DNA from: a virus
Strand: one strand, 5' to 3'
DNA: 62,503 bases
IMG/VR virus record: IMGVR_UViG_3300027834_000006
Location: 1 to 62,503 of that record
Made by a program: the position numbers and the translations under genes. The notes under the pieces were generated by a model. The model ran no database searches. It was not told the origin of the DNA and worked only from the letters and a program-made list of their open reading frames with translations. Shown one piece after another: positions 12,767-34,684 of this stretch (the stretch's first letter is position 1; each line of letters starts with the position of its first letter).

Positions 12767-14059
12767 TCATACAGGGATATGCAGGCAATCTGTGGCCCAT
12801 TTTTTTATAGAATTAATGGGATAACAAGAACCCTCTATGAGCATTTCCTTGTAGAAATTATATGTTTCTAACTTCGGGCATTTGTCTATGGCCCTCTTCA
12901 AACAATCCCTGGCGGCAACAAAATCGCCCAATTGTCTATGTGCTAAACTCTGTAATCCCAAAAAACTACCCTCGCAATAATCGACATCTTCGGACTGATT
13001 CATTTTCCACTCACCAGAGAGATCCAATGCTTCATTGTATCTTTTATTTTCCAGAAGATAATGAACATATCGAACCAGCAAAACATTGCTAAAATAAGTA
13101 TACTTTTTTAACATGTCTCTACTACTATAGGTATCTAGGCTGGGAAAATGATTCATTTGTATATCTTTTATGTTGGCAATGAGAAGATCGTTTTCGTCAA
13201 GGGCACCAGCAATCTCTTCCCGCGATACCCCATCCAAACGCATGTCTGCATCGGGATTCTCCGATAAAAGAAAAAACATACACTTCTTATGGCCTGCATA
13301 GTCGAAAGAGTCCACTTGGAACCCGCACCGTGCGGCCAATGATTTGAATGTCCTGTATGAAAAAGTATAATTATGTGCAGATGACAAAAAGGCATCGGAC
13401 GCAATAAGTGGATACGGAAACATAACCGATGGTACTTCAACCAATGCCTGTCCCCCATCGTTCAAAAGCAAACGCACCGACTCCAATGTTTCGCCGGGAT
13501 CATACATGTGTTCTATAACATTACACATCACAACCAAATCATATTTTTTGCAATCTTTGTGGTCCTTGTGAAATCTGCCATGTTCAACCTCAATGCCATT
13601 GACCTTCATTGCCAATTCACAACTTCTCCTGTCGGGGTCCATACCGTATACCTCTGCTCCCATACTGCGCATACCCCTCATAAGCGTCCCCATACCGCCC
13701 CCAATCTCCAACACGGATTTCCCCTTCAGGTCATACCCGATTTCCTTCAACCAGTCCAATGTGTATACTGTTGTCATAACTCCATCCACAACCGCTGTAC
13801 CGGGAATTCCCGCTTGCAGTCTCGACTTGTATTTCATGGCGTAATCTTTGTCGTAAAAATCACGCTGGGTTTCCCTTGTCATCATTGGATTTTTGTATAC
13901 CATCCCGCAATCATCGCACACCACGTCTGTCTTATGATAAACCCTACCGTCTTCATCGTCTATAAAAACCAATGGCTGCCATGGTTTCTTGGTTCTTAGG
14001 GTAGAGCAACAAGAACTCCCACATATGATACAATCCCTGGTTTCTTCTTCGTATTTCAT
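12767..14059 (-). CDS. Zinc-binding SAM methyltransferase with TPR-like C-terminus
   Basis: The start at 14059 is chosen because AAGGAGACTCAA precedes this ATG; a longer frame overlaps the upstream gene. The 430-residue product has an N-terminal zinc site (CIICGSSCC with CDDCG ~45 residues later) as in sugar C-methyltransferases and related enzymes. A class I SAM fold follows with motif I 'SVLEIGGGMGTLM', an acidic end to strand 2 in 'VYGMDPDRRS', and motif 'DLVVMCNVIEHMYDPG'. A C-terminal helical, TPR-like region follows ('RYNEALDLSGEWKMN', 'AARDCLKRAIDKCP'). It probably methylates a sugar or protein within the surface-modification cassette. Confidence 0.8.
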   Translation of the reverse strand: MKYEEETRDCIICGSSCCSTLRTKKPWQPLVFIDDEDGRVYHKTDVVCDDCGMVYKNPMMTRETQRDFYDKDYAMKYKSRLQAGIPGTAVVDGVMTTVYTLDWLKEIGYDLKGKSVLEIGGGMGTLMRGMRSMGAEVYGMDPDRRSCELAMKVNGIEVEHGRFHKDHKDCKKYDLVVMCNVIEHMYDPGETLESVRLLLNDGGQALVEVPSVMFPYPLIASDAFLSSAHNYTFSYRTFKSLAARCGFQVDSFDYAGHKKCMFFLLSENPDADMRLDGVSREEIAGALDENDLLIANIKDIQMNHFPSLDTYSSRDMLKKYTYFSNVLLVRYVHYLLENKRYNEALDLSGEWKMNQSEDVDYCEGSFLGLQSLAHRQLGDFVAARDCLKRAIDKCPKLETYNFYKEMLIEGSCYPINSIKKWATDCLHIPV

Positions 14060-14700
14060 TTGAGTCTCCTTGAGGTTATGTGTCGAATAAACTGCTTTCC
14101 TATGAATTCTGTATACGCCGGAGGAATACATTCCTTCAAACCCTTAAAGTCCATCCAGTCAATTCCATACGCAAGAGGAGCATTTTTTATTGTTTTTGGC
14201 AAAATTCCAAGTTTTTTTCTTAATTTTCTGCTTGCCTGACTTGCTGTTGTCACCAATAGTGGAACCTGAGCATGATTACACTGCATCGCTACTTCAACGG
14301 GGAAAGATGTCTCAAAGTATCTATGCCTTTGGCAGCGCAAGCCAAACATTGATCCGCACAGCATTATAGGATCGTTAAGCTCTTTTTTTGCTCCAGCGAC
14401 ATTCTCAATGATATAGTGCTTCATGGATCGTATAAGCTTTTGCCTGACACTATTAATTGATTTTTCATGGTTGCCTCGAAATTCTTTAGGTGTTAAATGA
14501 CTATATGCTTGGCACGGTGGACTCGCGTGGATCACATCAAAGCCATCGAGCGGAAAATTCAAGGCATCTGCCAGATAAAATTCAAAAGGGTATCTCGGTT
14601 GGGGTTCATTATCTACACCAACAATTTCAAAGCCCGCCAAGTCATACCCCATGGAAGCTCCCCCAGACCCACAATATAAGTCTAATAATTTCAACTTCAT
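14056..14700 (-). CDS. Short DNA (cytosine-5) methyltransferase
   Basis: The 214-residue product carries C5-methyltransferase motifs. Motif I is 'LLDLYCGSGGASMGYDLAGF', motif IV with the catalytic Cys is 'HASPPCQAYSH', and motif VI is 'YIIENVAGAKK'; 'LCGSMFGLRCQRHRYFETSF' matches motif VIII. It is much shorter than bacterial enzymes of ~330-400 residues, so the target recognition part is minimal, as in other phage enzymes. It would protect phage DNA from host restriction. No restriction partner is present. It overlaps the next gene by four bases (ATGA-like). Confidence 0.88.
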   Translation of the reverse strand: MKLKLLDLYCGSGGASMGYDLAGFEIVGVDNEPQPRYPFEFYLADALNFPLDGFDVIHASPPCQAYSHLTPKEFRGNHEKSINSVRQKLIRSMKHYIIENVAGAKKELNDPIMLCGSMFGLRCQRHRYFETSFPVEVAMQCNHAQVPLLVTTASQASRKLRKKLGILPKTIKNAPLAYGIDWMDFKGLKECIPPAYTEFIGKQFIRHITSRRLK

Positions 14701-14764: not shown

Positions 14765-15907
14765 TTACTTTAAAAGCACGGAAGGATCACCCATCAGATT
14801 CATGCAAGCTAATTGCATGGCAACGGGACGACTGATGACATTCGGAGCATTCCTATAATATTCTATACCATTATTAATCCATTCTTTTGCTGCCATTCCG
14901 AGATTATCGCATTCGCTCATATAATCAAATAAACACTTGCCGCCAATCTTTTCGTCTTGTTTGGTTCCTGCCTGGATCAACCCGGACACCACCAAACTTC
15001 GGATATTGGATCTAAAAAAAGAATTAAGCATGTTCCCTGTAATGGTGAAATTCTGCCCACTGTAAAAAGGGGTCACTTTTCTATTCCACTCACCGACTTG
15101 ACAACCGAATACTATGATAACTGACGGACCCCTGTCTCGCTGCAAGAGATTGAATGCATCACTGGCCTTGAAATCCCCGATCTGCCCCGAGTGACTATGC
15201 CCCAAAAGATACATAGTCCCGATATCTTTACTGAAAAACAATTCTTGGGTTTGCTCATTGACCCTTATGCTGGTTTTTAAGCCTCTAATCGGATCGCAGA
15301 CTTTATCGAAACAATGATGGAGGGTTTCCATTTTTACTTGCCATTCACTAACCTGACCAGTGAATTTGCCTTTTGTGTTTACGATAACACCACATGAATC
15401 CATGGCGTTATTCCGTTGTGGTTTAATCTTAGCTGTAAATTCTTCCAGTTTATCCGAGTAACCAGCATTGCCATACCCGGAAATTGTATTGGCAAATCTT
15501 CTCCATGGAGTATTAAAATAATTCCTTGAACATGGAATCCATCGCGAAACCCAAACATCCTGAGTGTAATTCAAGGGAAATTCACTTTCCTCAAATACTC
15601 CGCTATTATTGGAATCTAGCCACCTGTTAGTAAAATTACCATATAGATTGTCGGTGATTCCCAAGTCTTCCTCTAATGATTGCCGATGAATTCTAGCATA
15701 AGGAACCATCTCATCAAAAATCATAATGCCTTTAACTATGTCCTTATATTTCAATACTTTATTCCGCCAACCATTAAAATCAGAAGAACCATGCATGAGA
15801 AGAATACCTTCCATGCCCATGCGTAAGTTTGAACTCATGGCATCTAGCGTTTCTCTGACTTTCCCATAATGTTTGGCATTTTTATAATGCAATAGTCCCA
15901 AAATCAT
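14765..15907 (-). CDS. Gingipain (C25)/caspase-like clan CD cysteine peptidase
   Basis: The 380-residue product has the clan CD layout: a hydrophobic strand then 'MYLLGHSHSGQIGDF' (His 237/239 followed by Gly) and, 30 residues later, 'SVIIVFGCQVGEW' with Cys 269. A C25-type ending 'NLMGDPSVLL' closes the protein. Upstream, 'GILLMHGSSDF' and 'DVWVSRWIPCSR' also fit the C25 family. There is no signal peptide, so it would act in the cytoplasm, unlike gingipains. It directly follows a HigA-like regulator gene. A GTG at 15916 is an alternative start. Toxin, maturation protease and anti-defence roles are all possible. Confidence 0.75.
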   Translation of the reverse strand: MILGLLHYKNAKHYGKVRETLDAMSSNLRMGMEGILLMHGSSDFNGWRNKVLKYKDIVKGIMIFDEMVPYARIHRQSLEEDLGITDNLYGNFTNRWLDSNNSGVFEESEFPLNYTQDVWVSRWIPCSRNYFNTPWRRFANTISGYGNAGYSDKLEEFTAKIKPQRNNAMDSCGVIVNTKGKFTGQVSEWQVKMETLHHCFDKVCDPIRGLKTSIRVNEQTQELFFSKDIGTMYLLGHSHSGQIGDFKASDAFNLLQRDRGPSVIIVFGCQVGEWNRKVTPFYSGQNFTITGNMLNSFFRSNIRSLVVSGLIQAGTKQDEKIGGKCLFDYMSECDNLGMAAKEWINNGIEYYRNAPNVISRPVAMQLACMNLMGDPSVLLK

Positions 15908-15908
15908 G

Positions 15909-16160
15909 TCAATCACCCATCCTTTCTTCGTAGTTTTTCTGCAAATTATTCCAAAAATCTTCAGACATTAAAAAAACCAACGAAAGAGAGCGTGCTATTT
16001 CTGGAGAAATAGGGTCTTTCCCGGACAAAATGTCATCGATTACAACAGGATGCAGTCTCATGCGAATAGCCAACTTTGCCCGCGACATATTATATGTTTC
16101 CAAAACTTCTCTCAATGTCTCACCTGGATGTATTGCCATCGGCGCTTTATAGTTGCTCAT
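15909..16160 (-). CDS. higA: HigA-type XRE-family regulator/antitoxin
   Basis: The 83-residue product closely follows the HigA pattern: 'IHPGETLREVLETYNMSRAK' (helix-turn-helix entry), 'RLHPVVIDDILSGKDPISPE', and the typical ending 'SEDFWNNLQKNYEERM'. HigA proteins repress their own operon and neutralise partner toxins. No HigB-type RelE toxin is next to it; the partner gene is instead the C25-like peptidase, starting within a few bases of its stop. GAAAGGAGATT precedes the ATG. Two near-identical inverted repeats lie immediately upstream (16171-16232) and could be its operators. Confidence 0.88.
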   Translation of the reverse strand: MSNYKAPMAIHPGETLREVLETYNMSRAKLAIRMRLHPVVIDDILSGKDPISPEIARSLSLVFLMSEDFWNNLQKNYEERMGD

Positions 16161-16170
16161 AATCTCCTTT

Positions 16171-16232
16171 CAAGCTTGTTTATAGGTCAAGCCATGAATA
16201 ATTAGCCTGGCTTGTTTACAGATCAAGCCAGG
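16171..16232. repeat. Paired palindromic repeats at the terminase 3' end / HigA upstream region
   Basis: Two copies of a 24-base word differ at three positions. Copy 1 includes the last codons of the terminase and forms a perfect palindrome (CCTGGCTTG, 9-base loop, CAAGCCAGG; 16206-16232). Copy 2 lies 36 bases away, just before the HigA gene, with arms GCTTG/CAAGC (16174-16192). Read on the - strand, both copies encode Ser-Trp-Leu-Asp-Leu-stop and the three differences are all in third codon positions. They may be operators for HigA, or copy 2 may be a remnant of a terminase 3' end left by insertion of the HigA-peptidase pair. Confidence 0.7.
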
Positions 16233-17988
16233 ACTTACCGGTGGTTGTTTTCCCATAACCAAAGGTATCGTAATATAGGGGATTTTTTTTGCTAGGCTCT
16301 CTTTCGCGCGAGGGCTGCATTACGCCCAGGGCATCTATATTGGTCCCGCCATACTCCAATTGAATCCCCTTGATGCCAATCAAAAACGCCATTACACGGT
16401 CATCCTTGCCCTTCCCGTAGGCGCTCGCCCCCTGGCTGGTATCATCACGAACAAATATCATCATCTCGCGTACAAGCTCGGCACTGTGAATAATCACAGA
16501 TCCATTATTTACGCAGTATCTTCCATGTGTAAGAAGATCAGGTTTGGACTGTGCTGTTGTCATCCATCCCAATTGACTGTTGGAAAACTCATTTATAGAG
16601 TCACGAACAACTCTTCTTATGACGTTCCAATACCCAGCCTTCTGAATGGCAGATAAAACAGCATGGCCATAACCAAATACTTCAGGCACCAATAGCGCAT
16701 TATTGTATATAGTACCCAGGGCTACGGCATAATTACCCAGTACCTCCGCATCTACCTTGCCATGCCATTCCGCTGCTTGACAGGCAAGCCATCCCTGGCG
16801 CATATCCATGACCCGTAAAACTTCCAAACATCCAAAATCAGTACTACCCGGTTCACCCGATGACGGGTCTATAGACACAACATACCTTTCTCCCTCTACT
16901 GGTCTTTCCCATATCTTCAGGCTCCCCAACGATTCCTTCCTAATGATACTGCCATCTATCTCGCCCACACTAACAGGATCACTGCATTTTTGTAGATATT
17001 TTTTCAGCTTATCTCTATCGAAAACGGTTCTTCCGCTCACCACGAAAGCCTCATCATCCGTGGTCGGATACTGTTCGTGAAAATTCTCCAGTCCCGTCTT
17101 GAGAACATTGCCGCTCACGCCTTCACCCAAAAAAGAGATTTGATATCTTCGCCAATTGAGTTGTTCCAATGTGGCGTTGTGCACATCTCTCAACTCCACC
17201 TCTTCATCGTTGAAGGTGTCGAGCAGTTCTTCTCTCTCATTGCCCATCAGCGGGCGGGTGTAACCTTCGTGCTTCAACCAACTGAAAAATAAAGGTTTAA
17301 ATACACTTTTACCCGCGGTTGCCTTCTTCCATTCATCGTAAAATGGTTCGCCGTTACCAGCCATACCATTAGCCGTAGACTCGATCACAACGAATGTACC
17401 GGGCAAATTGAAGGTGGTGGGTACAACTGCTTTTCTGACAGCATCGGCATCCCTATAGAAGGCATACTCCGAAAAATGTATGAAATGATTTCCGGTACTC
17501 AACCCGGCCTTGTCGGTACAAGATACTGTTTTCATGGAAGACTTCAGTCCCATAGATCTGCCTGTTTTTGTAAGAGCTGTACTCGGAGCATCAAAAACAA
17601 GCCTGGAACCACTCTTGTACTTAACCATGGGTTTGAGTTGGCGGGGAAGATACTCATAAAATACATGAGACATATTATGTATATACTCACACCCTTTATC
17701 ATCAGCAGAAATAGTGATCCCCTGACGATGCGACTTCAAATGGCATTGCTGAAACATTCTTGATTGAACATACGTTGATACGCCATGTCTCCTTGCCTTG
17801 AGTATGATCAATAGCACCGGTTTCTTTTGCCCAATAAAGCCATTCCATACCCTATTTACCTCAACCTGAACATATCGATCATTGAAATCGAACTTCACCA
17901 ACCCCTCACCGGCCTGGATATACAATAAATTAGGCGAATAATAATCATAATTACCCAGGCGTTTCAAGTCGATTATTCTTTTTCCCAT
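16216..17988 (-). CDS. terL: Terminase large subunit
   Basis: The 590-residue product has an ATPase with a Walker A variant 'KARRHGVST' (residues 64-72), Walker B 'HFIHFSEYAF' ending in Glu 174, and a coupling motif 'IESTANGM' (~202). The RNase H-like nuclease begins 'VVSIDPSSG' (Asp 374) and ends with 'KGKDDRVMAF'. It powers DNA packaging through the portal. The start overlaps the upstream zinc-finger gene by 16 bp. Its stop lies inside a palindrome, and its last five codons are echoed just downstream. Confidence 0.95.
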   Translation of the reverse strand: MGKRIIDLKRLGNYDYYSPNLLYIQAGEGLVKFDFNDRYVQVEVNRVWNGFIGQKKPVLLIILKARRHGVSTYVQSRMFQQCHLKSHRQGITISADDKGCEYIHNMSHVFYEYLPRQLKPMVKYKSGSRLVFDAPSTALTKTGRSMGLKSSMKTVSCTDKAGLSTGNHFIHFSEYAFYRDADAVRKAVVPTTFNLPGTFVVIESTANGMAGNGEPFYDEWKKATAGKSVFKPLFFSWLKHEGYTRPLMGNEREELLDTFNDEEVELRDVHNATLEQLNWRRYQISFLGEGVSGNVLKTGLENFHEQYPTTDDEAFVVSGRTVFDRDKLKKYLQKCSDPVSVGEIDGSIIRKESLGSLKIWERPVEGERYVVSIDPSSGEPGSTDFGCLEVLRVMDMRQGWLACQAAEWHGKVDAEVLGNYAVALGTIYNNALLVPEVFGYGHAVLSAIQKAGYWNVIRRVVRDSINEFSNSQLGWMTTAQSKPDLLTHGRYCVNNGSVIIHSAELVREMMIFVRDDTSQGASAYGKGKDDRVMAFLIGIKGIQLEYGGTNIDALGVMQPSREREPSKKNPLYYDTFGYGKTTTGKSWLDL

Positions 17989-18569
17989 GACGGCGTCTCC
18001 ACTTCTATTGTGTCTGCTCCCTCGCGTATTTCTTCAAAGATTTTCTCACGTTCTTTTTTGTTCTTACCGGCGGTGAAACTATCGATGTATTTTTTTATGT
18101 CCAACGCCATCTTTGCGAGAATGGACTCGGGTACTTTATGCGAACAAAACATGGAATTAATCTCATTCGCCAAAGCCGCCATGGTTTTAACGTCGAGCAA
18201 TGAAGTTGAACCCAGAAGATAAATGATTATCTGTCGTTTGACAGCCGAATCCAGATCGGGTCTTTTCAATATAGCAACCATCCTGTCAAAGCGAAACTTC
18301 TCGGTATCCCGCAACATCTTCATTGCCATGTTTGTGGTGGTCTCAAAGTCCTTGTGGGCTACTGAAATTCTTGGGGCATTGTTCTTGGGGCTTTTAGATA
18401 TTGAATAATCATCACCCAACATACTATATTTATAGCCTTTGCGCATCTTACTAAACATCTTCTCCTTACACTCCTTGCAAATACGTTCGCCCCTCTCCCT
18501 TGAAGATAGAAACACATTGTTTTCATCGAGAGTCCTTCCGCATGCCTTGCATCTTTTTTCAGTCTGCAT
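17973..18569 (-). CDS. Zinc-finger protein, candidate small terminase
   Basis: The start at 18569 (MQTEKRC) is preferred over 18581 because GGCGGTGAAA precedes it. The 198-residue product has an N-terminal zinc finger 'RCKACGRTL...ICKECKEKM' followed by a helical body ('MAMKMLRDTEKFRFDRMVAI', 'VKRQIIIYLLGS') and an acidic end. It overlaps the terminase large subunit gene, the usual place of the small terminase subunit, whose DNA-recognition domain could be replaced here by the zinc finger. Assignment is from position and architecture only. Confidence 0.6.
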   Translation of the reverse strand: MQTEKRCKACGRTLDENNVFLSSRERGERICKECKEKMFSKMRKGYKYSMLGDDYSISKSPKNNAPRISVAHKDFETTTNMAMKMLRDTEKFRFDRMVAILKRPDLDSAVKRQIIIYLLGSTSLLDVKTMAALANEINSMFCSHKVPESILAKMALDIKKYIDSFTAGKNKKEREKIFEEIREGADTIEVETPSWEKE

Positions 18570-20499
18570 TTTCACCGCCATTCAATAGGGTTTTACTGTT
18601 TTTATAATTGTCGCTGATCCCATCCCCTATGAGGTCGTATAGGATTCTCAATCCATAGAAAAACTCAAAGATCTTCAACAGTTGGGCTATTTCTTTCTCC
18701 TCTCCATCACAGTAATCACCCAAACATCTTAGAACATTCTCTACCCCCATGCACCAGGACTGGATTACATGCATCGTAGCAAAATAGCACATCGGGTCAT
18801 GGAGGACTTCCATTCTAACCTTATTGGCGTAGCCGAGCAACTGCTGACGACCCGTTTGATCCAGATTCCCATCGTTATACATGCCGAACCCTTCCTCGCA
18901 ATCCACTAAAAATCTATCAATTGCAGCCCTGCTCCTGTCAATATAATCCCTTCCCTTGACAATCTGTGTATCAACCTTTTTTCTATCGCAATCTATTTTC
19001 TCTTTATCAATAACCAGCAGGCTGTCCAGAGTTTTCATGGGAGAGAACACTTCGTCCATATGCCTATTGATGGCATCTCGAAGAGGCATGATCTCTGTGC
19101 CCCTGATCAGAGCCCCACCCTCAGTGGCATTTATGCAAGTACCTTTCCAATTTGCTATGTCCAGCTCAAACCGTTTCAGCATTCCCACCCAAGTTTCCAG
19201 GGATTCAAGTTTTTGCCCGTTGTTCCCCATTACACTGGTTCTTTGCTGAATCAAAGGCGACCCCTTAAGGCCACTGCTGGCATGATCGGCGCCCTTCACA
19301 TGAGTCTTGCCGTCTGGAGCAAAAGCCAAATCCTGTCCTACCAATATGATCGGATCACATCCCATGAATACCGCCATCTGAAACGCCATATTGGTTACTG
19401 ACTTTCCCGTATTAAGAATACCCTTATCAAGATCCAACCATTTGAAATGTGCGAAATCACGAAACACAATCATCTTCTTCCCATGCCATTCATCGTAAAC
19501 CTGCGGCTTCACTACCGGACAAGCACCCAGCCACATCTGTTTCATAAATGCTTTTTTGTCGTCGGAGATCTGTTTGAAATGTTTACATGTGGTCAGATTT
19601 CTTTCAAGAGAACATACTATGTCTGGTATGATGGGAGTCTCATAATTAAAAAAGGTATTCAAGGATGCATCAGCCGCAAAAAATACTGCCCTGTCTTTAA
19701 TCTCGGGCAACAAATGAATGTTGTTGTTGAGTGATGGACCGGTGGCAACTATTACCGCAGGTTTTTCCTTGAATTGATCCCTTAACAAACCAACGCCGGG
19801 ATTGCCAATTATCGTTTCCATGTTCAGCAGCATATTATCTATTCCAGACCAGCTATCCAGGGGGTCATTGCCGTATGAACTCCTTATGTCGAAACATATT
19901 CTTTTGATTTCAGAACATGCTCTTTTATAATATTCTTTATTGAAACGAATAAGTATGGGATGTTCCACAAAATAGAATGAAGTGAATAGATTTCTCGCCA
20001 TGTCATTGATGAGACTGTATAGATGGTGATAAATATTGTTGGGGTCTTCTCCAACCACAAACCTTATGGCCGGATGTTCAAAAATACCAAACTTCTCGCC
20101 TCCGCTTGAAGTCAGATGTAATGCCCTGTTTTCTATAAATTTTCTGAATAACTGTATGTCATTCTCAATGACAATAAATAGGCTGGTTTTACCGGAAAAC
20201 TTATGGATGATATTGGCGAGTTCATAGCCCATCCCCACGCCCAACACAACCACCACGGCAGGCGACTGAATGTCTTCGGATAAAACCGAATCTACAAAGA
20301 ACCTTGCTTGCCCCGCCGGATCATCCTTGGAATGAATCAACCACTGCTGCCCTCCACGCTGAACAGTGCATGTGCATTCGTCTGCTTTATTGCTGGGCGC
20401 CACCTTTACAGAGTAATCATCGTTCATTCCCTTCATTTTTTCAACAATATGCGGATAGTGTTTTCTCAGTTGTTCCATGTTCACATCAATTATGCTCAT
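18559..20499 (-). CDS. Maf/DUF115-type glycosyltransferase
   Basis: The 646-residue product carries the MAF_flag10/DUF115 core: 'AVIVATGPSLNNNIHLLPEI' near residue 250, then 'AVFFAADASLNTFF' and 'PDIVCSLERN', followed by 'IILVGQDLAFAPDGKTHVKG'. Maf proteins transfer pseudaminic or legionaminic acid from the CMP-sugar to Ser/Thr of flagellins. The N-terminal 200 residues form the usual accompanying Rossmann-like domain ('VVVVLGVGMGYELA'). Its neighbours NeuA, NeuC and NeuB would supply the CMP-sugar. AGGGGATACTGA precedes the ATG. The acceptor is unknown; virion or host proteins are both possible. Confidence 0.85.
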   Translation of the reverse strand: MSIIDVNMEQLRKHYPHIVEKMKGMNDDYSVKVAPSNKADECTCTVQRGGQQWLIHSKDDPAGQARFFVDSVLSEDIQSPAVVVVLGVGMGYELANIIHKFSGKTSLFIVIENDIQLFRKFIENRALHLTSSGGEKFGIFEHPAIRFVVGEDPNNIYHHLYSLINDMARNLFTSFYFVEHPILIRFNKEYYKRACSEIKRICFDIRSSYGNDPLDSWSGIDNMLLNMETIIGNPGVGLLRDQFKEKPAVIVATGPSLNNNIHLLPEIKDRAVFFAADASLNTFFNYETPIIPDIVCSLERNLTTCKHFKQISDDKKAFMKQMWLGACPVVKPQVYDEWHGKKMIVFRDFAHFKWLDLDKGILNTGKSVTNMAFQMAVFMGCDPIILVGQDLAFAPDGKTHVKGADHASSGLKGSPLIQQRTSVMGNNGQKLESLETWVGMLKRFELDIANWKGTCINATEGGALIRGTEIMPLRDAINRHMDEVFSPMKTLDSLLVIDKEKIDCDRKKVDTQIVKGRDYIDRSRAAIDRFLVDCEEGFGMYNDGNLDQTGRQQLLGYANKVRMEVLHDPMCYFATMHVIQSWCMGVENVLRCLGDYCDGEEKEIAQLLKIFEFFYGLRILYDLIGDGISDNYKNSKTLLNGGENAD

Positions 20500-20523
20500 T
20501 CAGTATCCCCTAATAAAGATATT

Positions 20524-21552
20524 TTATGTTCCAATCATACAATCAGCCCCATTATAGACCACAATATTCGCTTCCTTGCCATAAACATTTTTTACATGCA
20601 AAAGAAATTCCTTCATTTCTTTGCACAATAAAACGCTTACGTCAAAATATTCCTGAATAGCTTCGTAAGAAACTTTATCTGTAACAAACGCCAGTGTTTT
20701 ACAGTACAATTCTTTTTCAAAGATACCATCATACGTAGCCGGGGTCAGGCCATTGGGCTGTTGAAATAAATAATGCACTCCTATTCCCTCCGGCATGGGA
20801 CTCCAGATACAAATCGTTCCTCCATTACGGACCACACTTTTGTTCTTGCAAACCTGCAAGGCATTCATAGACTGAAGAAAATCAATATTCTTGAACAGGG
20901 GAATTAGAATAGCAACATCCATATTATCACGTATGCATACCTCGTAATTTTGTTTAACAACACCAAAAACCTGTTCCCTGACCAACAATGGATCGCCCAC
21001 AAAGAGATCGACCACCTCCCCCTTATCATTAATAACAGAATTCACCAAAACATCTACATAGCGTACAGATTCCGTCATAGAATCCTCAATGCAATCCCCG
21101 GAAAAACCGTGAAAGTCCTGCACGCTTTTATAGTCGGACAACCCGGGACAGATTATTTTACCCCCGCCGCTGATCCCGGCATGAGTATGCGGCAATGCAG
21201 TGCCTACGGCTATAACATAACCCGACAAGGGAAACCGCCTAAGAGGATTGTGGTGATACACCCTTAATTCACTGGCAAAAAAACCCAACCGTCTTTCCAT
21301 GACTCGCATAGAAGCAGCCTGGTGCATGCCCGACGCCACAACAACAACAGTCTTATCAACACCTACTCTCTGCACGACATAATCCACAACACAGAACGCA
21401 ACGTGTGTATCGGGTCGAGTTAAGTCATCAATGACAATAGTGATTGTTTCATTGCTGGGCAGTGAAATCCAGCTTATCCTATCGTATACTTCCTGATTAG
21501 ACAATTGCTCTGCGGTTCCATCGCCCATTTTTACTTCCGTAATGTTAAACAT
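20524..21552 (-). CDS. LarA-like (lactate racemase family) racemase/epimerase
   Basis: The 342-residue product belongs to the LarA family. It has 'IDDLTRP' near residue 42, 'ASGMHQAASMRVMERRLG', and the diagnostic block 'PHTHAGISGGGKIICPG'. His 122, Lys 132 and His 148 are spaced as the His-Lys-His set that binds the nickel-pincer cofactor in lactate racemase (as I recall, 174/184/200). It would need host LarB/C/E to make the cofactor. Within a sugar cassette it may epimerise a sugar acid. The ATG at 21552 is preferred to the upstream GTG because GGAGGGGTGGCT precedes it. Confidence 0.82.
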   Translation of the reverse strand: MFNITEVKMGDGTAEQLSNQEVYDRISWISLPSNETITIVIDDLTRPDTHVAFCVVDYVVQRVGVDKTVVVVASGMHQAASMRVMERRLGFFASELRVYHHNPLRRFPLSGYVIAVGTALPHTHAGISGGGKIICPGLSDYKSVQDFHGFSGDCIEDSMTESVRYVDVLVNSVINDKGEVVDLFVGDPLLVREQVFGVVKQNYEVCIRDNMDVAILIPLFKNIDFLQSMNALQVCKNKSVVRNGGTICIWSPMPEGIGVHYLFQQPNGLTPATYDGIFEKELYCKTLAFVTDKVSYEAIQEYFDVSVLLCKEMKEFLLHVKNVYGKEANIVVYNGADCMIGT

Positions 21553-22198
21553 AGCCACCCCTCCGAGCGAAAGCTTCCGCTATGGCAAAATCCTCGTCAA
21601 CATTCAAATTATACCCTCTTTCTTTGGGTATTTCAATGAAATGATAGGCGGGAAATCGGCATTGATCATATGCCTTTAGAAGAAATTCCCTGCTATATAC
21701 ATATAGGTTCCCACTGTGAACGCGTGGACAATCAGAACCATAACCACCATAGTTTATCATATAGCTCACCTTGAGATTGTGATCCGTATACGAAGTCCCC
21801 AAACAAGTATTGCACGCTACCCTGTCAAGTTCACCCAGCATCAGATCTACATCCCCGGCATACCGCAAAGGATTGGTGACCTGGAATAACATGACATACT
21901 CGATCTCATCACGACAATCTTTCTCCGTCTCTACCAGGGCATGTTGAACCGACAGGGTATGAGGGGCAAAATCCTCACAAAGTATCCTTGGCCTCTGGAC
22001 CCTGATAAACCCAGAGGGGACATTAAAAGAATGAGGAACATCACTGGAAAAAACCATTACAGCAAATTTGTTTTTGATTGTTTCGATGAAATCAGTTGTC
22101 CATTGATAAAGAGGTTTGCCACAAAACTCTTTAAAACTCTTCCCGTGAACTCTCTTGCTGAATCCCTTAACCGTTACTAAAGCCATTACATTTGCCAT
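21545..22198 (-). CDS. neuA: CMP-nonulosonate (sialic acid) cytidylyltransferase
   Basis: The 217-residue product is a short NeuA/PseF/LegF-type enzyme that activates a nonulosonic acid with CTP. It shows the N-terminal nucleotide loop 'VKGFSKRVHGKSFKEFCGKP' (Lys in place of the usual Arg), 'RVQRPRILCEDFA', 'VMLFQVTNPLR' and 'YNLNVDEDFAIAEA'. ATAGGAGGAAACA precedes the ATG. It overlaps the methyltransferase gene by 32 bp and the LarA-like gene by 8 bp, so these genes are translated together. The sugar could be Neu5Ac, legionaminate or a variant. Confidence 0.86.
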   Translation of the reverse strand: MANVMALVTVKGFSKRVHGKSFKEFCGKPLYQWTTDFIETIKNKFAVMVFSSDVPHSFNVPSGFIRVQRPRILCEDFAPHTLSVQHALVETEKDCRDEIEYVMLFQVTNPLRYAGDVDLMLGELDRVACNTCLGTSYTDHNLKVSYMINYGGYGSDCPRVHSGNLYVYSREFLLKAYDQCRFPAYHFIEIPKERGYNLNVDEDFAIAEAFARRGGYV

Positions 22199-22811
22199 TG
22201 TTTCCTCCTATATCGTGTTTCATTTTATGGTATATGTACCCCTTGCCCAAAAATCTGTTGGTTATCCATCCTCTGCCCATACACGGGAACACCCATACCC
22301 CGTTGGTTGACTCTATCAATTCAGTACATCTGTGCCTTGGAACATCACGGCTCTCAAAAAGGTTGGATAGTTTGGCGGGTACAACATAAGAAATATAGAT
22401 ACCCCCCGTTTTCATTACCCCACAAACATTCCTCCATATCAGTCTCAGTTCATCCCGGTCAAAGTGTTCTTCCAGGCCATAAGAAAACACCAGGTCAAAT
22501 GTTTTTTCCTCATAGGGAAAAGGCTTGAGAACATCTCCCTTTTTAAAATTGTTAATCAACCCGCTAAAAAGTTCACGTTGATCCATCTTATGGGCTTGAA
22601 CTTCATAGAGCTCAAACATGGTAGATATTGTGGCACGACCGCAGCCTATCTCCAGGGATTTTTTCCCTCTAAGATTTTTATCGAGAGAATATTTTTCGTA
22701 CAGTTTCTTCATAACATCAAAGTTCTTAACAAATGGATCTATGTCAAACGGCGCCTTGCCGCCTCCGCGCTTATCCCAAAACTTTGCCCATCCATTATTT
22801 GAAGAGTTCAT
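22167..22811 (-). CDS. SAM-dependent methyltransferase of the sugar cassette
   Basis: The 214-residue product is a class I methyltransferase: 'KKSLEIGCGRATISTMFELY' (motif I), 'DLVFSYGLEEHFDRDEL' (motif IV region) and 'MKTGGIYISYVVP' (motif VI region). GGAGAAAAAATAA precedes the ATG. It lies between NeuC and NeuA with overlaps on both sides, so it probably methylates the nonulosonate or a lipid-linked or protein-linked form of it. The substrate is inferred from context. Confidence 0.8.
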   Translation of the reverse strand: MNSSNNGWAKFWDKRGGGKAPFDIDPFVKNFDVMKKLYEKYSLDKNLRGKKSLEIGCGRATISTMFELYEVQAHKMDQRELFSGLINNFKKGDVLKPFPYEEKTFDLVFSYGLEEHFDRDELRLIWRNVCGVMKTGGIYISYVVPAKLSNLFESRDVPRHRCTELIESTNGVWVFPCMGRGWITNRFLGKGYIYHKMKHDIGGNNGKCNGFSNG

Positions 22812-23970
22812 TTATTTTTTCTCCTATTTTAATTCCCGCCATACCATCTCCATAAAGAGAAGAAGCAGGATAACCATCAACCGAAAACTGACGTTCTACG
22901 GCATTCACGATAGACCCCGCATCACAATCAACACTTATGACGTTTTTGCCATGCTCCCTACCCTTTTGCCTGTTCCCTATATTAACAGCCGGGACACCCA
23001 AAAAAGACGCTTCTCTTATGCCGGTAGAGCTATTCCCAATTATGCCTTTGCTCTTCAACAAAAGCGCCCCGAAGTCAGCCGGATCGATATGGCGAATAAA
23101 CTGTATGGGAAAATCTCGATGACGCGATACTTCCATCCTCCACATTTTTGCTATAGCTTCGCCACCGGGGTCTATGTTATTCCAAAAAACAATCTTTGAG
23201 ATCTCAATTCTTCTAATGGCTTCGGAAAATTCCTTCAGATTATGCAAGAAATTATCATCTTTGGTGTCTGCATGATACAATACAATAACGTAATTATAAG
23301 AACACACATTAACGCGATCTCCGGTTCCGCGAAGTTTTAATAGGTTGTTTAAATATCGGGGCAATTTATCAGTTGTGGTATATCTGCCCTTTTTTGAATC
23401 CTTGTTTCCTATATGCTCATTGTCACACAACAAATCCATCGAAGGGCATCCGAAACAATATACATTTGAATGATCGTCGGGTTTCATTTTGTGGATCCGT
23501 TTCTCAGCCGCTTTGGTAGCAGGGAAATGAATATCGGATAACTGAGTGACCGCGTTTCTAACCTTATCATCAATGCTCCCGGTTTTTTCACCGCCCTGTA
23601 AATGTATCAAGGGAATATTGACATAAGAAGCCGCAGTTGCCATAGCCAACACTTCAAACCTATCGGCTATAACCAACACCGCATCTGGTGTAAGTTCCTT
23701 CAAAATAGTCGTGGCCTCTATGATTCCCAATCCTACAGTCAAAGACATCTTTTCAAGTCCATCCCCCTCCACGGCAAGTGCAATATCATGAGTGGCAATC
23801 CCCGGGAAATCCCAATACATATCAGCAGACGCGTTCCCATATTTATAAAGACGCATACTGCCCCCCAGGACCAAATGTACTTCAATGTCGGTATCTTCCC
23901 GGAAGTATCGAATAATCGTTTTTACCTTATTGTACGATGATCTATTCGTTATCAATATTGCAATTTTCAT
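22795..23970 (-). CDS. neuC: UDP-HexNAc 2-epimerase, hydrolysing (NeuC/LegG type)
   Basis: The 391-residue product matches hydrolysing UDP-N-acetylglucosamine 2-epimerases. 'KIAILITNRSSYNKVKTII' opens the first Rossmann domain, 'AVLVIADRFEVLAMATAA' and 'PLIHLQGGEKTGSIDDKV' mark the active site, and 'GIIGNSSTGIREA' with 'VPAVNIGNRQKGRE' marks the second domain. NeuC/LegG enzymes release UDP and a 2-epimerised HexNAc for NeuB. The start overlaps the ribonucleotide reductase stop as ATGA. Full length for the family. Confidence 0.9.
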   Translation of the reverse strand: MKIAILITNRSSYNKVKTIIRYFREDTDIEVHLVLGGSMRLYKYGNASADMYWDFPGIATHDIALAVEGDGLEKMSLTVGLGIIEATTILKELTPDAVLVIADRFEVLAMATAASYVNIPLIHLQGGEKTGSIDDKVRNAVTQLSDIHFPATKAAEKRIHKMKPDDHSNVYCFGCPSMDLLCDNEHIGNKDSKKGRYTTTDKLPRYLNNLLKLRGTGDRVNVCSYNYVIVLYHADTKDDNFLHNLKEFSEAIRRIEISKIVFWNNIDPGGEAIAKMWRMEVSRHRDFPIQFIRHIDPADFGALLLKSKGIIGNSSTGIREASFLGVPAVNIGNRQKGREHGKNVISVDCDAGSIVNAVERQFSVDGYPASSLYGDGMAGIKIGEKINELFK

Positions 23971-25730
23971 TTTTTGTCTGATCCCCCATTTGCTATCTTG
24001 AGAAGCTCACTATCAGAAAGTTTGTAATCCATTGGTATGAGAATTTCCTGCATTTTCGAACCTTCACGGTACATTGTAACGCCTTTCACTTCATGTAAAT
24101 GCTCCAGCAATAAACCCCCTAATTCATCGCAGGGAAAATCTTTCTTCAGTAATATGGTTTTTGAAATTGCACTGTCAATATATTGCTGAGCAGTTATCTG
24201 TACCTCCATGTGTTCTCTGGGAGAAATATCATATCCCCCTACAAAATACTCATGCGGCTCGCCTTTGATTATCTTCTCCCTGAATAATTCATCCATCTCC
24301 ACCACCGAAGCCATCTCTGATTTACCATCATTATTATTGGCATTGTAATGTCTCTTGTAGATAGGACAAAAAATGGGTTCAACACCATTGGAAACTCCGG
24401 CAACAATTGAAGTTGTACCAGTCGGTTGCATGGAGAGTATGGTTCCGTTTCTAAGACCATATTTCTTGATACCGGATCTGATTCTTCGTGGAAGCCGTTT
24501 GACAAATTCTCCCTCCAAATGTTTCTCGGCATTAAATTTCTCAAAGGAACCTCTTTCTCGGGCCAATCCAATCGAAGCATTGTAGGCATAGTCTCTGATA
24601 TTCAGAAAAAGGGAATCCATGAACTCAAGGCTTTTTTCTGAACCGTATTCCTCTATGCCCATCTTCAGCATCAAGTAATGGAGGCCCATAACCCCCAGGC
24701 CGATCTGTCGGGTTTGATGGGCATTGAGCTCTATGGTGCTCAGGGGATAATGTGAAATATCCAAAACATCATCCAGGAACCTGACTGCAAGCCCTATAGT
24801 GCGTTCCAATTTATTCCAGTCTACGTCACTGGTTTTTTCGTCATACATCTCAGATAGGTTAATGCTACCCAAACAGCACGATCCGTATACGGGAAGCGGA
24901 ATCTCTCCGCATGGATTAAGCGTATAAACATCATGGACATACCACAAAGGATTATACCTGGCGATAGTATCCAAATTAATAAGCCCGGGATCTCCGCAAT
25001 CCCATAAATTCTTGACTATATAATCCCACAATTCCACCGCCTTTACTGTATCATACACCTTGTTCTTAAAAACCAAATCCCATTCCTGATTGTTCTTAAC
25101 AGCTTTCAGGAATTTATCCGTTATGCCTATGGAGATATTGAAGTTCTGGAGCTCTCCCTCTTCTACCTTACTGCCAATAAACTTGTATATTTCTGGATGA
25201 TCGATCCGCAGAATTCCGATACATGCTGCTCTTCGTTGTCCTCCCAATTCTACGGTAGATAGGATCGAATTCAGTGCCTTCATAAATGACACCACCCCTG
25301 AAGAGCAACCGCCCTTACCGACAATGGGAGTGCCGACAGGTCTGAGGTTGCTGAAATTTATTCCAATGCCTCCCCCGGTAGAAGAAATCATCAATGCATC
25401 CTTGTATAGCTCTGCTATGCTTTCTATATTATCATCTACGCCCAGCGCGTAGCAATTGATGAGCATCCCTTTGTTCCTGCTGGCATTTCTCAGCACCCTT
25501 CCCCCTGGAACAAAAAGGGAATCGGTCATAATTTTCTCGAACTCTGCGATTACTTTCTCGTCCTCTCGCAGTCCCACTGCCTTGGCAACCCGATTGCAAG
25601 CAGTTTCCCAGAGCTTTTCGTTCTTATCGAAAGCATAACGTAAATCAAATATCTTCTTCCTATATCCCGTCAAGTCTGTGGCTCCGTCAAGCATACACTC
25701 ATCAACACTACAATCAACACATTCGACCAT
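23967..25730 (-). CDS. nrdJ: Class II (B12-dependent) ribonucleotide reductase
   Basis: The 587-residue product carries the ribonucleotide reductase core: 'VPGGRVLRNASRNKGMLINC', 'ISSTGGGIGINFSNLRPVG', the thiyl-radical loop 'NPCGEIPLPVYGSCCLGSIN', and 'MQPTGTTSIVAGVSNGVEP'. The length and sequence fit adenosylcobalamin-dependent NrdJ rather than class I. The usual C-terminal CxxC redox pair is absent, whereas the N-terminus has 'VECVDCSVDECM', an unusual Cys cluster that might substitute. CAGGAGTAAAAAAAA precedes the ATG. It supplies dNTPs for phage replication. Confidence 0.93.
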   Translation of the reverse strand: MVECVDCSVDECMLDGATDLTGYRKKIFDLRYAFDKNEKLWETACNRVAKAVGLREDEKVIAEFEKIMTDSLFVPGGRVLRNASRNKGMLINCYALGVDDNIESIAELYKDALMISSTGGGIGINFSNLRPVGTPIVGKGGCSSGVVSFMKALNSILSTVELGGQRRAACIGILRIDHPEIYKFIGSKVEEGELQNFNISIGITDKFLKAVKNNQEWDLVFKNKVYDTVKAVELWDYIVKNLWDCGDPGLINLDTIARYNPLWYVHDVYTLNPCGEIPLPVYGSCCLGSINLSEMYDEKTSDVDWNKLERTIGLAVRFLDDVLDISHYPLSTIELNAHQTRQIGLGVMGLHYLMLKMGIEEYGSEKSLEFMDSLFLNIRDYAYNASIGLARERGSFEKFNAEKHLEGEFVKRLPRRIRSGIKKYGLRNGTILSMQPTGTTSIVAGVSNGVEPIFCPIYKRHYNANNNDGKSEMASVVEMDELFREKIIKGEPHEYFVGGYDISPREHMEVQITAQQYIDSAISKTILLKKDFPCDELGGLLLEHLHEVKGVTMYREGSKMQEILIPMDYKLSDSELLKIANGGSDKK

Positions 25731-25736
25731 TTTTTT

Positions 25737-26318
25737 TTACTCCTGTATTTCAAGAGAATCTATTTGTTCTTTGGGTTTGCGAGTTTTTTTGTCGGTATCC
25801 CATGAACCAGCTAGCATAGCACTGAAATAATGTTGTGCCGTTTCAATCACGCGTCTCAATAATCGCATGTCATCTTGTTGCATGTCTCTTACACTAAGAA
25901 GTTTACGTATTTTGCCAGCATTAAATACACCATACAATTGACCTATGGCGGCGTTGAGGAACCCGGGGGTCAACGTAGTAACATTAAAAAATGAAAGGCT
26001 GACACACTGGTCTTTTTTCATGGCAACCTCAATACGGTCATAAACCTTCTGGCCTTCGCTTGGTACAATACATACCGGATGTCCTATGATTTCAAACACA
26101 GACAATCCCAAGCTCCTATACCTCATTGCTCCACTCCTGTATTCCAAAAAAGCGGGAGTCGTCTTAGGCGGCGGGCCGTCCCGCCCTTTCTTTTTTAGCA
26201 CACAACCTAAACAACAAGTACAACCAGGATAGTCTTCATAGGGATGCTCTTTGTGAAAATCGCAATCCTTACGCGTTATAACGGTTTCATAGTCATCTGG
26301 ATTATGTTCAATTAACAT
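25737..26318 (-). CDS. STAS-like DUF4325 protein with N-terminal Cys cluster
   Basis: The 193-residue product has a cysteine-rich N-terminus ('YPGCTCCLGCVLKKKG') and then a STAS-like domain of the DUF4325 type ('VSLSFFNVTTLTPGFLNAAI'). A helical end follows. Such domains occur next to ATPase and signalling genes and often regulate. Two ATGs are adjacent; the second (26318) has better spacing from TTTGGAGG. It lies between thymidylate synthase and ribonucleotide reductase genes. Its role in this cluster is unknown. Confidence 0.7.
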   Translation of the reverse strand: MLIEHNPDDYETVITRKDCDFHKEHPYEDYPGCTCCLGCVLKKKGRDGPPPKTTPAFLEYRSGAMRYRSLGLSVFEIIGHPVCIVPSEGQKVYDRIEVAMKKDQCVSLSFFNVTTLTPGFLNAAIGQLYGVFNAGKIRKLLSVRDMQQDDMRLLRRVIETAQHYFSAMLAGSWDTDKKTRKPKEQIDSLEIQE

Positions 26319-26351
26319 CATTAACCTCCAAACAAAATAACATCAAAATGC

Positions 26352-27017
26352 TCACCGGACACCCAGCCCCATACGCATCTTGACCAGGTCTATGGCATAC
26401 CCGTAAAGATGCAATCCTTTTGAGGCCACAATCATTTCTCCGTCTTCTACCCCGATATTCTTTGCCATATATTCTTTGACCTGCTGGAGTCCGGCAAGAT
26501 TCGCCGGGAACCCACCCCATAAATCCCAACTTCTGAAATACATGATAAAATGAAGCTTGTCATCTTTAATCCGTGTGTCGATATGTCTCAGACAGGGGGG
26601 ATCTTCCAGGTCGATGTCTGAAGGCTGACCTATTTGCATAATAAGCTGGTTTGTACCGAAACCAAGTTTTTTATAACGATCGATCACCTTGTCCATTGAT
26701 AGCAGGAGACGTTCCCCGTAAGTGTATTGTTCATTGTCTTCCTTGATTCCGGTCATAAGGTAACGGGCTGCATATTCGTCAACATATTCCTGGGTAGTGG
26801 GAGGGGGTATTCCCAGCCATTGCGGAATGTCAGGCACATGGGGCATGGCTCCTGGGTGTTTGATGTGTATGGTGATATAGTCAAATTCCCTTCGCACTTG
26901 CCCTTCGAAACTTCCCAAGTCTATTTTATACTCGGCTACGTCTTTTTCCAGAATGCGACTCATTGTCTGAAACCAGGCATCCGGGATGGTAGTCGCCTCA
27001 ATTGAAATCGTGTCCAT
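26352..27017 (-). CDS. Thymidylate synthase, methanogen (archaeal) type
   Basis: The start at 27017 follows AAAGGAGAGTAACATA; a much longer open frame would overlap NeuB and has no binding site. The 221-residue product has the ThyA catalytic block 'DLEDPPCLRHIDTRI' with the nucleophilic Cys, then 'FIMYFRSWDLWGGFPANL', as in the short thymidylate synthases of methanogens rather than the 264-residue E. coli type. It would make dTMP, or alternatively hydroxymethylate a pyrimidine nucleotide, for phage DNA. It is four bases from the NeuB stop, linking nucleotide and sugar genes in one unit. Confidence 0.85.
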   Translation of the reverse strand: MDTISIEATTIPDAWFQTMSRILEKDVAEYKIDLGSFEGQVRREFDYITIHIKHPGAMPHVPDIPQWLGIPPPTTQEYVDEYAARYLMTGIKEDNEQYTYGERLLLSMDKVIDRYKKLGFGTNQLIMQIGQPSDIDLEDPPCLRHIDTRIKDDKLHFIMYFRSWDLWGGFPANLAGLQQVKEYMAKNIGVEDGEMIVASKGLHLYGYAIDLVKMRMGLGVR

Positions 27018-27021
27018 TATG

Positions 27022-27858
27022 TTACTCTCCTTTCGTTTCGGGGAGTTCTTCAAGATACCGATCTTTGTATTTCTCTTTTGTTTCCAGTTCCCTGAATTGC
27101 ATGCCCAGTGCACCGTTACCCAACAACTCACTGGCTTCTTTGGCATCCCTGCAAAGAGCAGCCAGCTTTTCCGGTCCATATGCTATCTCTGAGGTTGGCC
27201 CGTAGGATCTTCCTATCTTTATATGTACCTCTATGTATTTTACGCCCATACCCATAACAATCGCGGGGACTATCCTGTTATAACAATGATCGGAATAACC
27301 GATTTCAACATTGGAACCCTGCGAAAACGTGTCCCGTAAAGTATCAATTCGGTTCAAATTAGCCTCGTTTGGGTATGTCGGGTACAGTGAGACACAATGC
27401 ATTAGAACGATTTTGTCTCCTGGAAGATCCTGCTTGATCAAATCGATTGCTGACATATCGTTCCACATTCCAGTAGAAAGAAAAATGGTTTCCCAGTAAT
27501 GTTTTTTGATACGTTCCAGCATTTTTTCGGTTATCTGCCCGCTTGCAATTTTGATGTTCTTGACGTTTAACTCGGCCAGAATATCTACTATATGCGGGTG
27601 GTTCGCAGTTACGGCAAACTTCATACCCAGCTCTTCGGTCAGGTTTTTGAAAAGCATTAGGTTGTCAGTCGTCAATTGATCGCCTTTGTATTTTTTGACT
27701 TTATGCTGCCATCGCTCACCCATATAGTCAGTATCGAACATCTGTAATTTGAAATAGTGGGCACCGGACCGTGCCGCGTTTGCCAGGGTCTCTCCCAAAA
27801 GATCATAATTCCCATTCCAGTAATTAGCCGGATCACAAATTATCTTTATTTCTTGCAT
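27022..27858 (-). CDS. neuB: Nonulosonate (sialic acid) synthase, no SAF domain
   Basis: The 278-residue product is a NeuB-type TIM barrel: 'AARSGAHYFKLQMFDTDY', 'IKIASGQITEKMLERI', 'ETIFLSTGMWNDMSAIDL', 'IVLMHCVSLYPTYPNEANL', 'NVEIGYSDHC' and 'VKYIEVHIKIGRSYG'. It condenses a HexNAc with phosphoenolpyruvate. Family members are usually ~340 residues with a C-terminal antifreeze-like SAF domain that completes the neighbouring active site; that domain is missing here and was not found nearby. AGGAGGACAGTAC precedes the ATG. The substrate would come from NeuC. Confidence 0.88.
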   Translation of the reverse strand: MQEIKIICDPANYWNGNYDLLGETLANAARSGAHYFKLQMFDTDYMGERWQHKVKKYKGDQLTTDNLMLFKNLTEELGMKFAVTANHPHIVDILAELNVKNIKIASGQITEKMLERIKKHYWETIFLSTGMWNDMSAIDLIKQDLPGDKIVLMHCVSLYPTYPNEANLNRIDTLRDTFSQGSNVEIGYSDHCYNRIVPAIVMGMGVKYIEVHIKIGRSYGPTSEIAYGPEKLAALCRDAKEASELLGNGALGMQFRELETKEKYKDRYLEELPETKGE

Positions 27859-33273: not shown

Positions 33274-34079
33274 GAAGAAAATAATTTTTTTTGTTTTTTT
33301 GAGAATTTTACACCTGGGGACTATACCCCCCTTTTCTTATATATCAATACCAAAACCCCACGTGCCACCCCTCTCCACGCGCGCACATAACGCACACGCA
33401 CGCCTACACACACATATAACAACAACTAACAACTGACAAAAGACTCACAAGGTTTAGTCTTTTCACATAACAAACAACACTCATAAACTACAATACTAAC
33501 AAAAGACAAGGGTATACCCCTATTGTCCCTATTGAGTACACTTGACCAAGGTCTAGCCATAGATACTTAATGTCTAAGTACTGAGTGCAAGATATTTAGC
33601 GTGGAATATCTAGCCCTCAGTCATAGCCATCAAGTACCAATGCCTACATATTTGGTATTAGATACCCAGCATCAACTACCGGGTGTCAAGTATGAACACC
33701 GAGTATTGAGTACTTAATGCAGGGGACTTAGTGCTTGTTACTGAGTACCAACTGAGAAACCCTAACATTATCAGTCTTTTGGGAACAATGGAATATTGAG
33801 AGGTTCCGAGTGTCTCAGCATATTGTAAAAACGCTAAGGTGGCTTATAGCATCGACGATCAGAGGGCAAGGCATACGAATGTATCAGTTTTGTGCTTGCG
33901 TCTGTTAGAGGGCAAATAAGGGCTGTTAAATTGGATTTAAGGGTTTTTGTTGGGTTAGTCATGATAATAGTTACCTCCATAAAGTACTGTAAGTGTTTGA
34001 TATTGTTGAAGATTGTTCCCTTTATGGGTTAAAACGTAGGGACTATACATTTTCCCAAAACCCTCCTATTAGTTTTCAA

Positions 34080-34275
34080 TACTGATGTTTTCTTAATTTC
34101 CTTCTTAACTTCTTACTTCTCTTTAACTACCTTACAAAAAAACATTCAAGTCTTAGTTTCTTTAACTTCTTCTTGCTTTCTCTTTAATAGCTTCTTATTT
34201 TCTTTAACTAAACACTTTCTATTATCTTCTTTTAATCCCTTCTTATTCCTTTATTTTCTCTTTACTGGTTTTTAT
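34080..34275 (+). repeat. Pyrimidine-rich tract
   Basis: About 200 bases of the + strand are almost all T and C with scattered A, built from irregular copies of words such as CTTCTTA and TTTCTTTAACT. Such strand asymmetry is typical of DNA unwinding or primase entry regions and of some terminator-like RNA sequences. No coding frame is present. Confidence 0.6.
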
Positions 34276-34304
34276 ATAACTTCTTTTTAATAAAATCTTT
34301 TGAT

Positions 34305-34505
34305 AAGATCTTTTAATAATCTATTCTGTAAGGGTTTCTTAACAAGTCTTTACTTAGTAGTTTTTTAAAGACAAAAGAAGCCTGTAGGAGAATGAAAAGT
34401 ACTAAAAACATGTAAAGACTTGATAAAAAGATGAAGATCTTTTATTAAGGTTTCTTTATTATTCTTTCATTAAAGACTTTTATTATTCTTGTATAAAGAT
34501 CTTTA
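34305..34505. repeat. Three AAGATCTTT palindromes in AT-rich DNA
   Basis: AAGATCTTTT occurs at 34305-34314 and 34434-34443, and the perfect 12-bp palindrome TAAAGATCTTTA at 34494-34505. Related TAAAGACTTT words lie between them. The regular recurrence in AT-rich DNA next to the main rightward promoter suggests binding sites of a phage initiator or regulator. Confidence 0.5.
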
Positions 34506-34604
34506 TATTAATATCTTTTATTATAGTACCTGACTGGGGGGATTTTGTCAAGGAGAAAAAAGCTTTTTATTTCGTTTTGCGTACCGGGCATTGAAGTTTT
34601 TTAC

Positions 34605-34633: not shown

Positions 34634-34684
34634 CTGATTATGTATCGTTGAGAAGTAAAAAAACTAATAAAAGGGAGAAAGAAA

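Follow-up and report, generated by a model that had tools for sequence, protein, structure and literature searches.

The 62,503-base IMG/VR record IMGVR_UViG_3300027834_000006 (hereafter the window, meaning the whole stretch of DNA analyzed) is a genuine tailed-phage genome with SU10/P22-like virion genes. It carries a NeuB-type synthase, a NeuC epimerase, a NeuA-like cytidylyltransferase, a methyltransferase, a LarA-like enzyme, and a Maf-type transferase, all on the minus strand between positions 18559 and 27858 (9.3 kb). The evidence tips slightly toward a phage that encodes its own short nonulosonic acid (NulO) glycosylation system, whose product is moved by Maf, most likely to a virion protein. 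The enzyme families are recognizable, most catalytic residues are preserved, and a syntenic core is kept in the phage lineage; we are highly confident in the gene set and its conservation. We infer the order of the reactions, the sugar, the roles of the LarA-type enzyme and the methyltransferases, and the acceptor as follows. NeuC would convert host UDP-N-acetylglucosamine (UDP-GlcNAc) to N-acetylmannosamine or a close N-acyl hexosamine, NeuB would join this product to phosphoenolpyruvate (PEP) to give a nine-carbon, sialic-acid-like acid, and NeuA would activate the acid to a cytidine monophosphate (CMP)-sugar. As the gene order suggests, the sugar or an acid substituent on it would be tailored by one or both methyltransferases and probably by the LarA-type racemase too. 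In the cytoplasm, Maf would then attach the sugar to Ser/Thr residues of an acceptor protein, most likely a virion protein made in the same late phase. The genome yielded no DegT aminotransferase of the legionaminic and pseudaminic acid routes, a result more in keeping with the three-enzyme NeuC-NeuB-NeuA route than with these longer ones. That the set yields a CMP-activated nonulosonate or a close relative is likely, that Maf attaches the sugar to a protein is nearly as likely, and that the acceptor belongs to the virion has a little better than an even chance.

NeuC (22795–23970, minus strand) is a hydrolyzing UDP-GlcNAc 2-epimerase that scores 275.1 bits against TIGR03568 (NeuC_NnaA), above the curated equivalog cut-off of 235.9 bits. 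Comparison with the human GNE epimerase (4zht) by phmmer gave an E-value of 2.3e-50. The active site residues R10, D103, H123, E128, D134, H233, S314, S315, E320, and R334 are invariant in the family alignment. The NeuB-type synthase (27022–27858, minus strand) is a 278-residue protein made of the TIM barrel only (PF03102, E 1.6e-36). It keeps the PEP/metal set K37, K103, S106, H191, E210, and H212, and the wider group K37, Q39, T84, K103, S106, Y159, S189, H191, E210, and H212 is conserved either across 82 NeuB proteins or within the lineage. The E25 equivalent is D9 in the window protein and Glu in its relatives, and Q108 occupies a position where most relatives have Glu or Asp. The divergent NeuA/PseF-type cytidylyltransferase (21545–22198, minus strand) matches TIGR03584 (PseF, E 9.5e-8) and CTP_transf_3 (E 4.5e-4), and a profile built from the phage NeuA proteins recovers NeuA genes adjoining bacterial NeuC. 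Its N-terminal nucleotide-binding motif (A-R-x-G-S-K...K-N) is present as T/V-x-K-x-x-S-K/V/T-R...K, with Lys in place of Arg in the phages.

The Maf-type protein O-glycosyltransferase (18559–20499, minus strand) matches PF01973 (E 7.3e-40) and PseD (E 6.5e-45), and consists of an MptE-like/GT42-fold core with N- and C-terminal Maf domains. Its predicted structure (predicted local distance difference test score (pLDDT) 86) aligns with that of Magnetospirillum Maf (5mu5) over residues 1–635, with a Foldseek E-value of 1.3e-21 and a Z-score of 27 over 543 residues. The next matches, archaeal HPPK (Z 13) and the sialyltransferase CstII (Z 10), cover the core only. A Maf/DUF115-type transferase had been proposed in a preliminary description of this DNA, and the structure prediction confirms that fold over the full length. 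PF01973 is named after MptE, and ribonucleotide reductase and ThyA-like genes lie nearby, as would be expected if the protein were a pterin pyrophosphokinase and the remaining genes served nucleotide or cofactor metabolism. This is highly improbable. An MptE function was rejected on architecture, given a three-domain Maf match at Z 27 against a single-domain HPPK match at Z 13, and the neighbors NeuB, NeuC, and NeuA are sugar enzymes. The full-length Maf architecture is common to the phage protein and the Maf/PseD flagellin systems of Magnetospirillum, Campylobacter, Aeromonas, and Clostridium botulinum, and use of a CMP-nonulosonate on Ser/Thr is expected for the phage Maf as it is in those systems. 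Unlike them, the phage Maf adjoins a terminase block, and it is 14% identical to the solved Maf. We did not detect a flagellin family match among the window proteins scanned.

The LarA-superfamily (nickel-pincer nucleotide) racemase/epimerase is a short phage form of 344 residues (20524–21558, minus strand) that matches Lar_N (E 2.4e-11) and the NF052593 malate racemase family (E 5.9e-23). The top Foldseek match of its model (pLDDT 75) is LarA 9eia (E 1.8e-18), and the best 18 PDB matches are all LarA-family enzymes. Six cofactor/catalytic residues are kept: D45, R48, H79, H124, K134, and H150 correspond to D70, R73, H107, H173, K183, and H199 of LarA_Ip, as numbered in PMC12611868. The modeled fold and these residues place the protein in the LarA superfamily as a predicted 2-hydroxyacid racemase/epimerase. 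It resembles LarA_Ip (9eia) and the malate racemase Mar2 (6d6z) in fold and in all six residues, and differs from solved LarA-family structures in length (344 against about 420 residues) with 11–19% identity. Pattern scans found the short form solely in the phage lineage of the window, and none of 84,980 genomes yielded a bacterial relative, although the patterns were strict and absence is not proven by them. The parts of the LarA literature that were checked gave no description of a phage-encoded nickel-pincer enzyme, and the window would add one if the assignment is correct.

Two methyltransferases accompany these enzymes. The S-adenosylmethionine (SAM) methyltransferase (22167–22811, minus strand; Methyltransf_11, E 2.1e-6) has a frame that overlaps NeuC and NeuA, and orthologues 35–39% identical occupy the same place in three phages. 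The second, a Cys4 zinc-binding, Methyltransf_23 (E 1.4e-19), and TPR protein (12767–14131, minus strand), lies outside the 9.3-kb interval. Its N-terminal CxxC..CxxCG motif is conserved, and elsewhere, in both viruses and bacteria, its homologues adjoin NeuB/NeuC. It is part of the same conserved neighborhood as the cassette and is a probable sugar methyltransferase.

The NeuC alignment led to three phages (L011, L012, and L013) from different metagenomes with the gene order of the window. This order is NeuB, a variable stretch, NeuC, methyltransferase, NeuA, LarA, Maf, a small protein (g17973), terminase, the Cys4-methyltransferase-TPR protein, g12095, and portal. Relatives were reachable by family alignments only; IMG/VR scans with single NeuC, Maf, or LarA sequences came back empty. 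LarA and Maf scans gave four further contigs, one of which scores like a copy of L011, leaving seven distinct phages with the window included. The LarA-Maf-terminase-methyltransferase/TPR-portal run is kept in all seven, with catalytic residues preserved. NeuB, NeuC, the methyltransferase, and NeuA are kept in all four phages that reach far enough; the added contigs begin inside or near the cassette, where upstream genes are not assessable. Identity to the window is 73–86% for the capsid (in contigs holding enough of it), 57–66% for the portal, and 53–59% for the terminase. The corresponding values in the cassette are 44–52% for Maf, 45–47% for NeuC, 37–46% for NeuA, 37–39% for NeuB, and 27–41% for LarA. 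The lineage has carried the cassette for a long time, and the cassette changes faster than the capsid. That diverged relatives have kept the set supports genuine use by the phage.

NeuA is weak against the profiles and nucleotide genes break up the cluster, as might be seen if the cassette were host DNA carried as a passenger or in decay, or the product of chimeric assembly, with no phage function. Against this, the order is kept in diverged phages of different metagenomes, the frames are intact, the catalytic residues are invariant, and terminase and portal flank the cassette on one side in every relative. Conservation across seven phages largely refutes a passenger or chimeric origin, and we give it very little credence. 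The NeuC tree has several virus-only clades, one of which, with full support, is the window lineage, and the virus/bacterium labels change 7 times compared to 45 in shuffles; because the bacterial sample was picked by similarity, origins in this tree are not to be over-read. The nearest bacterial NeuC genes are spread across Chloroflexota, Omnitrophota, Planctomycetota, and others, and do not permit a host assignment.

The preliminary description placed NeuC, NeuB, NeuA-type, and Maf/DUF115-type proteins within 9.3 kb on one strand, with an overlapping methyltransferase and a LarA-like enzyme, and all of these are found where it located them. The enzyme assignments withstand the refuting conditions set in that description: profile searches put none of NeuB, NeuC, NeuA, and Maf in an unrelated family, and the conserved catalytic set of NeuC and the PEP/metal set of NeuB are present. 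The family-search E-values of the cassette enzymes rule out chance matches, and NeuB, LarA, and Maf belong clearly to their families or superfamilies. The idea of a pure sugar cassette did not hold, since three other genes are interposed between NeuB and NeuC. They encode a ThyA-like protein (26352–27017) that is closest to a methanogen thymidylate synthase model, below its cut-off, and lies near the reductase; a STAS-like DUF4325 protein (25737–26321); and an adenosylcobalamin-dependent (B12, NrdJ-type) ribonucleotide reductase (23967–25730, minus strand; TIGR02504, 511 bits, above cut-off). The reductase is found in two of the three relatives covering the NeuB-NeuC region. Reading frames in the interval mostly overlap or nearly abut, with overlaps running from the reductase through LarA, and Shine-Dalgarno-like motifs precede most cassette starts.

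Several observations weigh against the proposed nonulosonic acid system. The interval is no single dedicated operon, as the STAS-like and nucleotide genes that separate NeuB from NeuC show. LarB, LarC, and LarE were not found among the window proteins scanned, and the LarA-type enzyme depends on a host-made cofactor. The C-terminal SAF/AFP domain of NeuB gave no match, the protein stopping at 278 residues, and Arg314 in this domain is essential in meningococcal NeuB (PMC6795526). NeuB also has GPT where most relatives have GPD, an Asp to Thr replacement. The CTP_transf_3 score of NeuA falls just under the Pfam cut-off, and N197/N199 (N-I/L-N) replaces the DxD acidic pair in four of four phages, an equivalence drawn by alignment only. 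At least one Asp or Glu occupies this DxD-type site, which we take to have a metal role, in each of the 40 other family members aligned. We identified no Ser/Thr site that could act as the acceptor.

The missing SAF domain, GPT for GPD, and the NxN motif suggest that the enzymes may make a different keto acid nucleotide. NeuB and NeuA would then have shifted in specificity, with the product tailored by LarA and the methyltransferases and still moved by Maf, so that the transfer step is shared with the favored explanation and the sugar differs. In all four phages the lineage-specific replacements have become fixed, a pattern that a constrained change of specificity would produce, and CbMaf accepts N-acetylneuraminic acid (Neu5Ac) and 3-deoxy-D-manno-octulosonic acid (Kdo) besides its native sugar (PMC11339370). 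Opposing this, NeuC exceeds the NeuC_NnaA cut-off with its active site kept, and SAF-less NeuB proteins are widespread beside NeuC in bacteria and viruses, with a 290-residue relative solved (PDB 6ncs). A non-sialic product is an appreciable possibility that falls short of even. More tentatively, the lineage may have evolved a new nonulosonate-like sugar, by means of the SAF-less NeuB, the NxN NeuA, the methyltransferases, and the phage-specific LarA, that Maf adds to the virion, with comparable NulO-Maf systems in other podovirus-type phages; we consider this combined proposal somewhat unlikely.

A virion protein is favored as the acceptor because the terminase adjoins the cassette, an integrase is absent (no tyrosine integrase was found in the window genome), and the frames are co-directional. 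Thr-rich virion proteins are present, which is weak evidence for an acceptor. As the main rival, Maf could instead place the same sugar on flagellin or some other surface protein of the host during infection, for example to conceal receptors, prevent superinfection, or put flagella out of action. Maf enzymes of known function target flagellin (PMC11339370), and the prophage genes epaA/epaB of Acinetobacter baumannii alter host nonulosonates by converting host pseudaminic acid (PMC12053666). That known example comes from prophages, whereas here no tyrosine integrase was found and the genes adjoin the virion block, and a late change to the host surface profits a lytic phage less. Modification of a host protein is rather unlikely, and transfer to a virion protein is retained as the preferred reading. 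epaA/epaB are likewise phage genes acting on nonulosonic acids, but they epimerize host-made capsule pseudaminic acid and do not synthesize the sugar. As far as we found, known phage action on nonulosonic acids is limited to changing a host-made sugar. Mycobacteriophages encode glycosylation of their own virion proteins (Freeman et al. 2023, cited in PMC12619734), and the cited account, as represented there, does not describe nonulosonate synthesis.

NeuC relatives occur in 78 viral loci, with NeuA and NeuB within 10 kb in 44 of them. A terminase was identified by PHROG in 24 of the 50 records tested, and 16 of these 24 carry NeuC/NeuB/NeuA; L011 and L013 add two by synteny. Seven further records combine all three genes with Terminase_6N or a P22-type portal (L019, L033, L045, L047, L052, L055, and L068). 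By gene content, NeuC/NeuB/NeuA sets are present in at least two dozen other uncultivated IMG/VR phage contigs. NeuC is paired with Maf in five other records (L040, L045, L047, L052, and L062), all five with a P22-like portal, and these apparently form a second NulO-Maf phage group. The NeuC/NeuB/NeuA route was not found in annotated GenBank phages, and the open-access literature searched holds no description of a phage making and transferring a nonulosonate. The earlier view that a full route would be remarkable in a phage thus stands for annotated phages and the searchable literature, but not for uncultivated contigs, where the sets recur. If the glycosylation reading is correct, this recurrence, and the place of the set in the lineage core, would make phages a reservoir of sialic-acid-like chemistry, and the window would offer a system in which to test virion glycosylation and Maf action outside flagella.

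In annotated phages, tblastn gave no match to Maf or portal and a single match to NeuC; NeuB was matched weakly twice and LarA weakly once. The NeuC match is FPLJ01000048.1 (L003), a bacterial contig of Moritella viscosa that holds a capsule/NulO cluster and is filed among phage records. Bacterial NeuC-NeuB-NeuA clusters such as this one hold the same three families in one neighborhood as the phage, whose NeuC exceeds the family cut-off. The phage differs in a NeuB without SAF, the NxN NeuA, and the added LarA-type enzyme, and the nearest bacterial NeuC loci carry neither the phage-type LarA nor the phage-type Maf. No polysaccharide-export gene was matched among the window proteins scanned. 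In the paper on Stenotrophomonas phage DLP4, an ORF of the lysis cassette is said to have a NeuB-like domain; this candidate was set aside as not a pathway.

The cassette is anchored in the phage genome by the terminase large subunit (16216–17988, minus strand; PHROG terminase, E 1.8e-14 and 5.2e-11). Between it and Maf, overlapping Maf, lies the conserved small protein g17973 (17973–18581, minus strand), which is in the same place in most relatives and gave no match in family searches. The P22/SU10-like portal, a phage hallmark, is at 10303–12063 (minus strand; PF16510, E 5.9e-16; PHROG portal, E 1.8e-29), and the capsid protein is at 8099–9034 (PHROG major head protein, E 6.1e-36). Other phage genes in the window encode an SU10-type adaptor, an internal virion protein, a primase, a DnaB-like helicase, and a sliding clamp. 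The open frames at the window ends (1–1012 and 59606–62503) are a single uninterrupted gene in the relative G001 (16325–20245). The gene map thus closes to a circle, and the record probably represents a nearly complete genome in circularly permuted form.

Three paralogous LamG/ConA-lectin-like proteins (1025–1918, 1932–2810, and 4904–5695) in the virion region are a possible glycan-binding set. Between the terminase and the Cys4 methyltransferase, a 383-residue protein (14765–15916) has His/Cys motifs that resemble caspase/C25 proteases by eye only; its family search gave no match, and neither did the relatives. Elsewhere the phage encodes a PspA/IM30 homologue (42791–43480, E 1.7e-31) and an ECF-like sigma factor (48608–49267; Sigma70_r2, E 2.7e-15) that is a possible late-gene regulator. 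A long non-coding stretch at 33300–34640, located at the GC-skew switch and with divergent gene blocks on either side, is a possible origin region, and a TTGACA...TATAAT promoter lies within it near 34607.

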